Of a DNA stretch of 64,000 bases, positions 53,045 through 57,771 are shown piece after piece (position 1 is the stretch's first letter; each line of letters opens with the position of its first letter). A program made the translations under genes and the position numbers. Source of the DNA: an uncultured beta proteobacterium (GTDB lineage: Bacteria > Pseudomonadota > Gammaproteobacteria > Burkholderiales > Burkholderiaceae_C); NCBI GenBank assembly GCA_903897925.1, contig CAIUDG010000079.1, positions 1 to 64,000 on the forward strand. Reading direction: 5' to 3'. The notes under the pieces are model-generated. The model saw only the letters and a program-made list of their open reading frames with translations. It did not search any database and was not told where the DNA came from.

Positions 53045-53092
53045 TGCGAACCTTTGACGGGTTAATTAAGACAGTCGGACTTTAAGAACTAT

Positions 53093-53112
53093 TTGTGACA
53101 ACTGTATGACAT
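53093..53112 (-). promoter_or_regulatory. PHO box for the pst-pho operon
   Basis: Read toward pstS the site is ATGTCAT, spacer ACAG, TTGTCAC, then AA. It is two 7-mers at 11-bp period, close to the E. coli PhoB consensus CTGTCAT-N4-CTGTCAC. A TTAAAG element lies nine bp downstream where a -10 is expected. This is the natural site for PhoB activation of pstS. Confidence 0.8.
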
Positions 53113-53164: not shown

Positions 53165-53183
53165 AAGTCATTTAACTGTCACA
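53165..53183 (+). promoter_or_regulatory. PHO box facing ppx
   Basis: The plus strand reads AAGTCAT, TTAA, CTGTCAC, A, matching the PhoB consensus at 16 of 19 positions by eye. A TAnnnT element (TAGGCT, 53193-53198) lies about 10 bp downstream. The 436-bp region 53045-53480 between pstS and ppx thus holds two PHO boxes in opposite orientation. Between this site and the ppx start there are 298 bp with no convincing gene; a 36-codon frame at 53225-53335 is weak. Confidence 0.7.
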
Positions 53184-53480
53184 AAAACGCCCTAGGCTTG
53201 CGACTTTTACACGGAATACGTTTCATGCTGCCGCCCACCCTTGCCCCCGCACGCCGCGCCCGGTTGGCGGCCTGCGCCCGCAACCGGCGGGTGCCCGACA
53301 GGAAACGTGTTTTGCCTCCTCCAACCCAAAAATAAACCCGATTCAAGCCGGTGCTGCGCAATGCACCCGGACACTCCAAATATGCCGGTCCACACTAGGA
53401 AACCCTGCGCCCTTCGTCCCAGAGCGCGCCAGGCGAATGCTATGCTTGCCGCGCCAGTATCAATTCATAAAGCAACGCCA

Positions 53481-55101: not shown

Positions 55102-55482
55102 ATGGCCACTGCTGTCAAGAAAGCCACCGCAAGCAGCGTCAACGCAAAACCGGCAACTCCCGGCAGCGCCGGCGCTGCCGAAAAGCCCGCCCCAACCGCG
55201 CTGAAGCCGGCAGCGCACAGCGCGACCAAAGTGGTGGCGCCAAAGTCCGACAAAGATAAAAAAATCAAGATGGTGCGCGACAGCATTGCCATCCCGAAAG
55301 CCGAATACCTGGTGCTGGACAGCCTCAAGTTGCGCGCCGCCACGCTGGCGATACCAGCCAAGAAAACCGAAATCCTGCGCGCTGGCATCAAGGCCCTGGC
55401 GGCCATGTCGGACAAGGCCTTTCTGAGCGCCGTGCGCAGCGTGCCAAACCTGAAAACCGGCCGCCCAGCCAAGGGCGAGTAA
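55102..55482 (+). CDS. Ala/Lys-rich hypothetical protein with conserved C-terminal domain
   Basis: This 126-residue protein has an Ala/Lys/Pro-rich N-terminal half of ~50 residues, like histone-H1-type or PAKKA tails. A conserved C-terminal half follows: KKIKMVRDSIAIPKAEYLVLDSLKLRA, then PAKKTEILRAGIKALAAM and NLKTGRPAKGE. The second half resembles a ribbon-helix-helix-like DNA-binding region, by eye only. AGGA sits 10 bases before the ATG. It lies 112 bp after ppx. Basic proteins of this kind bind DNA or polyphosphate in some bacteria, but that is a guess here. Confidence 0.75.
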   Translation: MATAVKKATASSVNAKPATPGSAGAAEKPAPTALKPAAHSATKVVAPKSDKDKKIKMVRDSIAIPKAEYLVLDSLKLRAATLAIPAKKTEILRAGIKALAAMSDKAFLSAVRSVPNLKTGRPAKGE

Positions 55483-55491
55483 GGCGCCGAC

Positions 55492-56253
55492 TCACAGCTC
55501 GGGCAGCGCCCTTTCACGGGTCCAGCGACGTACCTGTGCCGCGACCCAAGGTCCGTCATCCAGTGGCAGGTCGTGCCCGGCGCTGGGATGCAAGCGCAAG
55601 TCGCAGCCCCAGTGCTGCGCCAGCGCCAGCGAACACTGCACCGACACCAGCTGGTCGCCCTGCCCACCCAGCACCAGCACCGGCATTCCGGGGGCCTGGG
55701 CCGCAGATTGGTAACGCCAGGCGGCCCAGAGCTGGCGCAACGCATTGGCCGGCGCCACCGGCTGGCGCTTGCGCAACAACACCCAATCGAGCAAGACCGG
55801 ATATTGCGCATGGCGGCTGGTCATGCGCAGAATTTCGCGTTCGATGGTCGGGTCACTGCACGGCCAGCACAGCAAGCGCAGCAAAGCCGCGTAGTTGGCC
55901 GGACGCAAGCGGGCATAAAACGGGCTGAAGCGGCGCAGGCTGGTATTGATCAGCACCAATGCCTGCACCTCCTGCGGATACTGGCGCGCCCACTCCAATG
56001 CCACCATGGCGCCCAGCGACATCGCCAGCAGGCGCACCGGCCCGGTGCCGCCGCTGGCCAGCCACTGCGCCCGGCACGCCTGCGCCAGCGCGGCCACACT
56101 GGCCGGGCTGCGTTGCGCGTACAGGGCGCCGTTGCCGGGCATATCCAAGGCCAGCACACGCGCCTGCGGGTGCTGTGCGGAAAATTCGGCGACAAAAGCC
56201 CCCCAGTGGCCTGCGCCACGGGTCAGTCCGCGCAAAAAAATCCATTGTTCCAT
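55492..56253 (-). CDS. Alpha/beta hydrolase (BioH-like)
   Basis: This 253-residue protein has the alpha/beta-hydrolase triad: Ser in LLAMSLGAMVALEWA, Asp in VLGGQGDQLVSVQ, and His in PSAGHDLPLDDGPW. The nucleophile elbow reads AMSLG where GxSxG is usual. It resembles BioH and related carboxylesterases, but no biotin genes are present, so the substrate is open. ATG 56253 (MEQWIFLRGL) is chosen. It follows the M14 gene by 35 bp on the same strand. Confidence 0.83.
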   Translation of the reverse strand: MEQWIFLRGLTRGAGHWGAFVAEFSAQHPQARVLALDMPGNGALYAQRSPASVAALAQACRAQWLASGGTGPVRLLAMSLGAMVALEWARQYPQEVQALVLINTSLRRFSPFYARLRPANYAALLRLLCWPCSDPTIEREILRMTSRHAQYPVLLDWVLLRKRQPVAPANALRQLWAAWRYQSAAQAPGMPVLVLGGQGDQLVSVQCSLALAQHWGCDLRLHPSAGHDLPLDDGPWVAAQVRRWTRERALPEL

Positions 56254-56288
56254 GCAGCCCTTCGTTGGAGTCACAGCGCAGTATCGGT

Positions 56289-57299
56289 TCAGTACCAGTC
56301 TTGCAAGGCCATGGCATGTTGTGCCTCGCGCGCCTCACCTTGCGGCAGCCAGCGCTGGTAGCTGGAGGCTGCACGCGATAAAAAATCCAGCAGCATCTGG
56401 TGCTGGCGCAACACCCGTTGCTGCCGGTGCGCAATCAGCGGATTGAAAATGCCATGGCGCGAAAACAGCTGGCGCGGATTTTTCTTCACCCACAACCAGG
56501 AGCCCATTTCCAGTGTCAGGGGCAAAAAGATGGCATCGGCGCGGGCACTGCCCTGCTGGTAGAGGTAATCCCAGAGATCGCCATGGGCCAGGTATTGCAG
56601 ACTTTGCGGCTCGAAAATGTAGCGGTGCTGGCTCAGCGAACGCGAAAAAATCGTTTTCAAGGCATGCACTTCGGCCAGGTGCCGAATCGGCGCACGGGTG
56701 TGCGCGTACGGAATCCAAATCCGGTCGGTGGCGCCAAAGCCGGAGTGGCAATCCAGCGCCAGGCTGAACGGACGCGACTGCAACTCCTGCTGCACCACTT
56801 CGCAAACTGCCCGGTTTTCGGCTTCCATGGGCTCGTGTTCCCAGCCCTGAAACCAGGGCAAACGTGCACTCCAGCGCTGGCCGCCCACCAGAAACGGCAC
56901 CTGCTCCAGCGCCTGCACCGGCGCATTGCGCATCAGGTCCACGCCACGCGGATTGGCCCGGGTGCCCATGGCCATGCCGCCCGGGTTGACCAGTGGCATA
57001 AACACCAGGCGCAAAGACTCCAGTTGCCGGTGCAGGGTGCTGTCCCACTGCATGCGCATCACCAGGCTGTGCAAGTGCGCCAACACCACCTCGGCGCCAA
57101 TGCGCTCCAATCCGTGCACGCCACCAAAAAAACCCACTGCGGGCACGGCCGGGTCCGGGTTACCCAGCGTCACCACCTGCACCGGATAGGCGCCACCACC
57201 GGCCATCTCCACCTCGCACACGGTGCGGCATTGCAGATGCGCGGCCCCGAGTTCAACAATACGCTGAAGGGCGGCGAGTTCAGGAAGTTCGGTAAGCAT
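56289..57299 (-). CDS. M14 family zinc carboxypeptidase-like protein
   Basis: This 336-residue protein has the zinc motif HxxE in FGGVHGLERIGAE (about residues 61-73) and a downstream zinc His in LALDCHSGFG, as in M14 peptidases and succinylglutamate desuccinylase/aspartoacylase relatives. RANPRGVDLMRN and VNPGGM support the fold. The substrate is unknown. It may trim peptides or peptidoglycan stems. The ATG at 57299 is chosen over 57356. It forms an operon with the hydrolase gene. Confidence 0.85.
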   Translation of the reverse strand: MLTELPELAALQRIVELGAAHLQCRTVCEVEMAGGGAYPVQVVTLGNPDPAVPAVGFFGGVHGLERIGAEVVLAHLHSLVMRMQWDSTLHRQLESLRLVFMPLVNPGGMAMGTRANPRGVDLMRNAPVQALEQVPFLVGGQRWSARLPWFQGWEHEPMEAENRAVCEVVQQELQSRPFSLALDCHSGFGATDRIWIPYAHTRAPIRHLAEVHALKTIFSRSLSQHRYIFEPQSLQYLAHGDLWDYLYQQGSARADAIFLPLTLEMGSWLWVKKNPRQLFSRHGIFNPLIAHRQQRVLRQHQMLLDFLSRAASSYQRWLPQGEAREAQHAMALQDWY

Positions 57300-57372
57300 G
57301 GCTGCGTGCCAGCATAGCCGCGCCGTGTGACAACTCCGTGCAGCTGTCGGTGCCATTTGCGTGACTTTGTGC

Positions 57373-57406
57373 TTTACACACGCCTGTCATATGTGCGCGC
57401 TACCTT
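57373..57406 (+). promoter_or_regulatory. PHO-box-like site before the first microprotein
   Basis: TTTACAC (57373-57379), spacer ACGC, CTGTCAT (57384-57390). The second 7-mer is a perfect consensus half; the first is weak. Exactly 10 bp later TACCTT (57401-57406) could be the -10. The following ORF starts at 57436. Confidence 0.4.
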
Positions 57407-57435: not shown

Positions 57436-57558
57436 ATGATGCACCGCTTTGCTTTTATTCGCGCGCTGGCACTGCCCGCCTGCCTGCTGTGGGCCGTGAT
57501 GGAGTGCATCGCACTGCAGCGCGCACACCACCGCCAACGCAAATTGCCGCTGCGTTAA
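57436..57558 (+). CDS. 40-residue basic membrane microprotein
   Basis: This small ORF encodes MMHRFAFIRALALPACLLWA and 20 further residues, ending in a strongly basic tail (HHRQRKLPLR). The central stretch from about residue 6 to 27 is hydrophobic and fits one membrane helix. AGGA lies about nine bases before the ATG. A PHO-like box and a -10-like element precede it. I do not recognise a family. It is too short for most gene finders. Its neighbour is a second 40-residue ORF. Confidence 0.5.
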   Translation: MMHRFAFIRALALPACLLWAVMECIALQRAHHRQRKLPLR

Positions 57559-57569
57559 AGCAGCAAGAA

Positions 57570-57614
57570 CTGTCACAACAGATTCACCAAAGCGTCACCC
57601 GCGCTTGCTATCTT
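57570..57614 (+). promoter_or_regulatory. Triple PHO-type repeat before the second microprotein
   Basis: CTGTCAC (57570-57576), GATTCAC (57581-57587) and GCGTCAC (57592-57598) recur at an exact 11-bp period. Exactly 10 bp after the last unit comes TATCTT (57609-57614), a good -10. This is the layout of PhoB-activated promoters. The next ORF starts at 57649, about 28 bases after the predicted transcription start. Confidence 0.6.
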
Positions 57615-57648
57615 TACACCTGTCAGCCACTACACCAAGGTGAAACCC

Positions 57649-57771
57649 ATGTTCTGGAAACTCTTTAGCGTAAAGAAAATGCTGGATGCACTGTTTGACG
57701 ACGGATGGTGCACGCTGGGGCTGCCGGAAGGCGCCGATGCCAATGATGCCGTCTGGAGCGAAATCTACTGA
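57649..57771 (+). CDS. 40-residue acidic microprotein
   Basis: This small ORF encodes MFWKLFSVKKMLDALFDDGW and then a Gly/Asp/Ala-rich acidic half ending in VWSEIY. The N-terminal half could be an amphipathic, membrane-facing helix with a basic face (KKM), and the rest is acidic. AAGG lies nine bases before the ATG. A triple PHO-type repeat and a -10 box precede it at correct spacing. No family is recognised. It converges on sixA and is separated from it by a perfect hairpin (57801-57821). Confidence 0.55.
   Translation: MFWKLFSVKKMLDALFDDGWCTLGLPEGADANDAVWSEIY

Follow-up and report, generated by a model that had tools for sequence, protein, structure and literature searches.

Small proteins encoded in the regulons of two-component systems are known to tune their own systems, and the known examples come mostly from Escherichia coli and its kin. 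MgrB is reported to inhibit the kinase of its own regulon, PhoQ (PMC8404706), and YoaI, which is regulated by PhoR-PhoB, is described as an activator of EnvZ-OmpR that connects both systems (PMC11853020). Transcription of yoaI starts from a promoter bound by PhoB, with the site given as TGTCATCAAACTGCCATT (PMC10294691). The small DUF1127 proteins, including YjiS, are often shorter than 50 aa and are described as binding PhoR and acting on phosphate metabolism (PMC12501420).

The locus considered here lies in a stretch of 64,000 nucleotides, the whole of which was analysed and is called the window. It encodes two microproteins without a family model on PHO-type promoters, A and B (Table 1). Around them is a Pho cluster in which PhoB, PhoR and PPK1 pass the NCBIfam cut-offs and a SixA-like protein scores just under its own (68.6 bits, cut-off 74.5); phoU, pstB, pstA, pstC, pstS and ppx were recognised from sequence reading, without a model scan. 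A preliminary description of this DNA dealt with A and its promoter and overlooked B, the other half of the pair.

Table 1. Features of the A/B locus and of the neighbouring Pho cluster (positions in the window)
Feature	Position	Strand	Evidence
PHO-type box of A, triple 11-bp direct repeat	57570..57598	+	same geometry (mostly two half-sites) in relatives
-10 hexamer TATCTT	57609..57614	+	10-bp spacer after last repeat; TANNNT equally spaced in relatives
likely ribosome-binding site AAGGTG	57637..57642	+	SD-like 4-mer in 53/54 relatives' loci
microprotein A, 40 aa (MFWKLFSVKKMLDALFDDGW...), acidic	57649..57771	+	conservation, pN/pS 0.20
PHO-type box and -10 of B, TTTACAC-N4-CTGTCAT-N10-TACCTT	57373..57406	+	top PWM score of the window, 23.8 bits
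microprotein B, 40 aa, one predicted membrane helix, basic C-terminal tail	57436..57558	+	pN/pS 0.39
M14-family zinc carboxypeptidase, divergent from B/A	56289..57299	-	Pfam PF00246, E 3.4e-17
weak PHO-like box before the M14 gene	57311..57344	-	13.0 bits vs resampled maximum 12.6
alpha/beta hydrolase behind the M14 gene, recurring neighbour	55492..56274	-	Pfam scan, synteny
reference PHO box of pstS, A-like geometry	53079..53112	-	also before pstS in 5/5 relatives (those whose pstS start was at hand)
PHO-type box facing ppx	53165..53198	+	pattern and PWM, 14.0 bits; not found at ppx of 4/4 relatives

The preliminary description had proposed a 40-codon frame with a ribosome site, encoding an acidic microprotein, and had named conservation of the frame and its start codon in related genomes as one test that could refute it. 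The frame came through that test. It ends with a TGA at 57769-57771, 40 codons after the ATG at 57649, and an in-frame GTG at 57640 falls within the ribosome site. A single-sequence query matched A in 24 of the 61 genomes from the genus (E<=1e-3; that of the window among them), and a profile gave matches at E<1e-10 in 14 of the 399 genomes from the family, across six genera; the other matches of the profile up to E 0.1 start at E 0.006 and look chance-like. A scan of titled genome records, one genome per species, yielded 54 A loci from Rhodoferax, Acidovorax, Hydrogenophaga, Curvibacter and Hylemonella and from MAGs without a genus name, two of the loci (L084 and L085) coming from a single MAG; we take these genera to be Comamonadaceae. 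ATG is the start codon in 54/54 of them, a count slightly favoured by the fact that one of the two peptide search patterns begins with Met, and an SD-like 4-mer precedes it in 53/54. The consensus reads M-x-W-K-L-L-G-L-Q-K-x-L-D-x-L-F-D-D-G-W-x-x-L-G-L-P, followed by a variable tail, and the net charge, -4 in the window, has a family median of -5 and a range of -8 to +3. Three sets of sequences were used: alignment A1 (48 loci, of which eight, L041-L048, were left out as chance matches and one duplicate was dropped, leaving 39 rows), A2 (18 A sequences picked for the conserved motif) and A3 (35 of 55 A sequences, that is, the window and the 54 loci). Short forms of 29 aa (e.g. MILKLLGLQRLLDELFDDEWLAPIALIEV) occur in some genus genomes (L026-L030, L164-L168), and in L164-L168 B-like ORFs with ALRR or ALQR lie downstream of them.

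The frame is under purifying selection. In the core (codons 2-24) pN/pS is 0.20 over 404 pairs with at most 25% difference (74 distinct coding sequences) and 0.32 over 2551 pairs with up to 45% difference, and in the tail it is 0.49 over 229 pairs, the pairs not being independent of each other; differences at codon positions 1/2/3 number 333/26/473 in 124 close pairs. That the PHO promoter drives an RNA or a frame arisen by chance, with no protein made, would suit a frame so very short. It is nonetheless extremely improbable in view of the nearly invariant second codon position and the conserved start and ribosome site, and a chance frame or leader RNA was rejected on the core pN/pS. Judged by its conservation, A is almost certainly a genuine protein family. 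AlphaFold2 predicts a helix at residues 3-23 and an unstructured tail, with a modest mean pLDDT of 65.7. The hydrophobic moment of the helix is barely above that of shuffles (median z 0.53; 16% above 1), and the Kyte-Doolittle maximum, 0.53 in the window and 0.40 as the family median, is too low for a membrane-spanning helix.

Outside its GTDB family, A has no convincing match in 399 sampled genomes of the order, the window's own apart; two partial matches in this sample (E 1e-3 and 9e-3) lie within long frames, and the single match among plasmids is at chance level (E 0.4). Neither A nor B reaches a Pfam, NCBIfam, PHROGs or PADLOC family above cut-off: Pfam lists no family for A at E<=10 and for B a single one that falls below cut-off, DUF5337 (E 0.087). 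When 35 A homologues were compared with Pfam, three families were touched at E<=1, DUF1127 (PF06568) not among them; membership of A or B in DUF1127 was rejected for want of a model match, and a search of the window's genome gave no DUF1127 match at all. An identity of A or B as a phage or defence protein was likewise rejected, there being no PADLOC or PHROGs match, as was a known fold by sequence, the best PDB match of A having E 0.23 and B having none.

The preliminary description had also placed A behind a PHO promoter made of three 7-mers at 11-bp spacing with TATCTT 10 bp further on. This geometry proved exact: CTGTCAC (57570-57576), GATTCAC (57581-57587) and GCGTCAC (57592-57598) stand in perfect 11-bp register, and a search of both strands for the looser pattern TCAC-N7-TCAC-N7-TCAC gives one occurrence in the window and none in 100 dinucleotide shuffles. 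The pattern TCAY-N6-GTCAY-N10-TANNNT has three matches in the window, before pstS, ppx and A, and none of 100 shuffles contains any. Its variant KTCAY-N6-GTCAY-N10-TANNNT matches six times in the whole 4.18-Mb genome, three of the six being the pstS, ppx and A sites, and not once when read backwards. Two sequence features of a promoter of the Pho regulon, TGTCAC-like half-sites repeated in 11-bp register and a -10 element about 10 bp on, are present at A, with the geometry seen at pstS.

In relatives, a PHO-type box (N7-N4-NNGTCAY-N9-11-TANNNT, a pstS-like geometry) is found upstream of A in 45/54 loci, and its distance from box start to ATG is 65-69 bp in 40 of these and 86-87 bp in the other five. 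The positions not fixed by the pattern (half-site 1 and spacer) have a pairwise identity of 0.67 vs 0.29-0.35 in the flanks (44 distinct sequences), and the consensus is nnGACGCnAAACCGTCACAnnnnnnCGnTAnCTT. Half-site 1 is mostly GACGC rather than GTCAC and two half-sites are usual, so that the triple repeat claimed at first, which is indeed present in the window, is not general: the third repeat is an elaboration. Among the nine A loci without a box, five (L082, L083, L092, L108, L112) carry B immediately upstream of A, and there a site of 20.8-33.9 bits precedes B. These scores refer to a position weight matrix (PWM) built from 40 distinct A boxes of relatives, the window excluded. Scanned over the 64-kb window, it gave its four highest scores within the Pho cluster, at 57373+ (23.8 bits, before B), 57581+ (14.4, A), 53165+ (14.0, ppx) and 57311- (13.0, M14). 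The pstS site at 53079- came fifth (8.1 bits) and ppk tenth (2.6 bits); since the maxima of 20 Markov-resampled windows range from 5.3 to 12.6, these two scores are not significant and that of M14 is barely so. By its sequence, the promoter of A is of PHO type, and A is very probably under Pho control.

Matches to the PHO pattern were also seen elsewhere in the window's genome. One (L142 2830-2861, G000:C167:14329-14360; also L262) lies behind three transporter genes and before a 41-aa ORF (MIYRNILKWY...DWDHN); we read the three genes as phnC, phnD and phnE, Pfam giving a permease. Homologues of the ORF occur in 16/61 genus genomes (its own counted), with a second copy in its own genome on contig C91. 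No PHO box was seen in 9/9 relatives' loci read, and the ORF is therefore not counted in the Pho regulon. Another match (L141 2801-2832, G000:C91:8300-8331) lies between a calcineurin-like phosphoesterase, presumably PlcP-like, and a 221-aa frame that has no Pfam match and the look of a membrane protein, with a similar frame of 225 aa after it. A further match (L140 3176-3207, G000:C24:22175-22206) precedes a 40-aa Cys-rich ORF (MRTYKTCSHCHTEKPPEGG...) and a 601-aa frame with the look of an ABC-transporter permease.

B has a PHO-type box of its own, which outscores that of A. Its core pN/pS is 0.39 (103 pairs), and its Kyte-Doolittle maximum, 1.83 in the window and 1.57-1.98 in 10/10 sequences, predicts a single membrane-spanning helix. 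The predicted structure is a helix at residues 3-36 (mean pLDDT 79.5), a signature E-x-x-A-L-Q-R is shared, and the tail after ALQ carries a net charge of +3 to +6 in 10/10 sequences, the whole protein ranging from +4 to +7 in ten sequences. The B profile (A4), built of ten sequences from the window and nine of the ten loci with B upstream of A, matches 26/61 genus genomes and, at E<=0.01, 66/399 family genomes (26 at E<=1e-5, but many of the others weakly) and 43/141 family genera, again with many weak matches. B also stands without A in many genera: of the 29 best family B loci, the window apart, 19 show no detectable A over a distance of 600 bp. A PHO-type box, searched from -400 to +50 of B, is found in 12 of these 19 at -61 to -94.

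A search with this profile over 1.2 kb on each side of A placed B beside A in 49/54 loci (E up to 4e-4), 10 times upstream, as in the window, and 39 times downstream. The profile itself contains nine of the ten upstream cases, which match by construction, and none of the 39 downstream ones. In 37 of these 39 the downstream B has a possible in-frame start between -59 and +28 of the stop of A, positions that, read from the sequence, are as in a coupled operon. No B was found within 1.2 kb on either side of A in five loci (L091, L096, L098, L121, L133); in the genome of L098 (G198), a B-like frame adjoins M14 on a different contig. The best argument for joint action of A and B is that the pair is kept despite a changed gene order, and a functional link between the two is likely. 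One sort of small membrane-active peptide is TisB, and B, which is short, hydrophobic and basic and is encoded together with a mostly acidic A, could be likened to it: B would lower membrane energy and slow growth on phosphate exhaustion, and A would restrain it. This is most unlikely, as B occurs without A in 19 of the 29 family loci, so that A is no obligate antidote; A stands without B beside it in five of its 54 loci, and PADLOC and PHROGs give no match. Nor do the two genes always occur together, as those of a toxin-antitoxin pair would.

A second reading turns to the gene that diverges from the pair. In it the two microproteins, chiefly B, would serve the M14 peptidase, and with it the alpha/beta hydrolase, B bringing the cytosolic enzyme to the membrane or modulating it under phosphate starvation, and A being a later addition. 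The M14 protein itself scores far below the cut-off of the model for the murein tripeptide amidase MpaA. Upstream of A, 46/54 loci have a divergent M14 gene, two of the eight exceptions (L099, L126) ending at a contig or locus edge. This gene also lies divergent and upstream of B in 26 of the 29 best family loci (window apart), the set in which 19 lack a detectable A. From the other side, 30 independently fetched M14 loci include 19 with a B-like frame (by motif) and 13 with a PHO-type box on the divergent side. Across 140 family genomes, M14 is present in 24/26 B-positive vs 16/114 others (Fisher p 2e-14, relatedness ignored and unlisted negatives taken as the same genomes by inference). Against this, joint inheritance alone can yield a conserved adjacency, the pair adjoins sixA/ppk and not M14 in L081, and no box above 5.8 bits (best in L090) precedes any of 46 relatives' M14 genes, vs 13.0 bits in the window. 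General Pho control of M14 was rejected on that figure, the gene as a rule not being driven by Pho in such a manner. A role of the pair in the service of M14 is rather doubtful.

The gene order around A in the window had suggested, in the preliminary description, that a place among ppx, ppk and sixA was meaningful, which comparison did not bear out. Only two of the 54 loci (L096, L081) have ppx or sixA less than 1 kb away from A, and 15/54 have at least one of ppx, ppk and sixA in the flanks (up to 10 kb, some shorter); adjacency to these genes as a rule was therefore rejected. Three other kinds of gene recur within 6 kb of A: a metallophosphoesterase (10/54 loci), a glycosyltransferase (9/54) and a PF13444 acyltransferase (9/54). 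Enzymes of the PlcP, Agt and OlsB kinds replace phospholipids under phosphate starvation, and we assume that the three clusters are of these kinds, Pfam giving folds only. These neighbours, together with ppx, sixA and ppk near A in the window, leave room for a pair that would adapt membranes or polyphosphate stores by way of a lipid-remodelling enzyme (PlcP-, Agt- or OlsB-like) or a polyphosphate enzyme. Such a role is unlikely: none of the three clusters is found in any locus titled Acidovorax, which places them outside the core unit, they are perhaps just other Pho genes of one island, and the same box pattern is missing in relatives at ppx (4 loci), ppk (13) and the acyltransferase (7). A gene that we take from the look of its sequence to be of CYTH/CHAD type lies within 6 kb of A in 8/54 loci (L082-L103, Rhodoferax-type). 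A basic Ala/Lys-rich protein of 126 aa (window 55102-55482) has no Pfam or NCBIfam match; several loci have it near ppk or A, and it may be a DNA- or polyphosphate-binding protein.

The reading that we prefer is feedback on Pho signalling. When phosphate is short, phosphorylated PhoB would bind the direct repeats and RNA polymerase would be recruited to the promoters of A and B, whose geometry is identical to that at pstS. B would insert as a single membrane helix, its basic tail predicted to be probably cytoplasmic, and A, which is acidic in most cases and has a helix at its N-terminus, would associate with this tail and with the membrane surface. Binding of A to the membrane or to B is weakly founded, as the helix is not strikingly amphipathic and the charge of the family runs from -8 to +3. 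The pair may then modulate a larger membrane-associated partner, for which the PhoR-PstSCAB-PhoU signalling complex would be the first choice, in a feedback like that of MgrB, YoaI and the DUF1127 proteins. PhoR or Pst as the target is a tentative choice. PhoR was found in 29/30 genomes checked, whether or not they have A, and hence is not distributed as the pair is; with B tracking M14 and PhoR near universal, a service to M14 is almost as good a reading. The cytoplasmic linker of PhoR, compared over 29 PhoR loci (of which L251 gave no usable sequence), has a mean charge of +2.5 in A-bearing sequences (15), +2.6 in those with B only (5) and +3.1 in those without A or B (9). A-bearing and A/B-lacking sequences do not differ (p 0.24). 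A mostly basic linker fits an acidic ligand without singling out A-bearing species, and electrostatic fit of A to the linker was discarded as a test since no difference was found.

The whole chain, from induction by PhoB to a membrane pair that feeds back on Pho signalling, is thus put forward with reserve. With the same caution, B may be described as an inner-membrane microprotein across Comamonadaceae and A as the cytosolic protein, acidic in most cases, that partners it in Rhodoferax, Acidovorax and their kin. It is conceivable, at a similarly guarded level, that a PhoB-induced A/B complex either resets signalling by PhoR/Pst or anchors the neighbouring M14 peptidase to the membrane. If true, the pair would be a new regulatory unit, made of two microproteins, in the response to phosphate starvation. 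Tests at this locus should be simple: both genes are short, the promoter is defined, and isolates with a name are at disposal, among them Acidovorax delafieldii DSM 64 and A. soli. In A. delafieldii DSM 64 both A and B are present (L110), and the locus L133, which has A but no adjoining B, is from Rhodoferax lacus.

How the pair relates to the described systems can be stated feature by feature. The promoter of A has the 11-bp repeats and the 10-bp spacing to the -10 element of pstS-type Pho promoters, with three repeats in the window vs their two. In the literature searched, mostly outside subscription journals, no description of A or B was found among the matches listed. In the comparison with Pfam and NCBIfam family models, no MgrB or YoaI family was among the matches of A and B, and no likeness in sequence to YoaI was noticed. 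YoaI, a microprotein of 34 aa in E. coli, is expressed from a PhoB-bound promoter (PMC10294691), and in this A and B would resemble it. Unlike YoaI, A is acidic and by hydropathy not membrane-spanning, and it is paired with a second microprotein. A positive charge is described for the DUF1127 proteins (PMC12501420), whereas A is acidic. MgrB, a membrane microprotein of 47 aa in a two-component regulon of E. coli, offers a model for the possible action of B (PMC8404706), but it belongs to PhoQ/PhoP and not to PhoR/PhoB, and A and B reach no Pfam family cut-off. A microprotein encoded in a regulon is of a known kind; the families of A and B, and their pairing, appear to be new.
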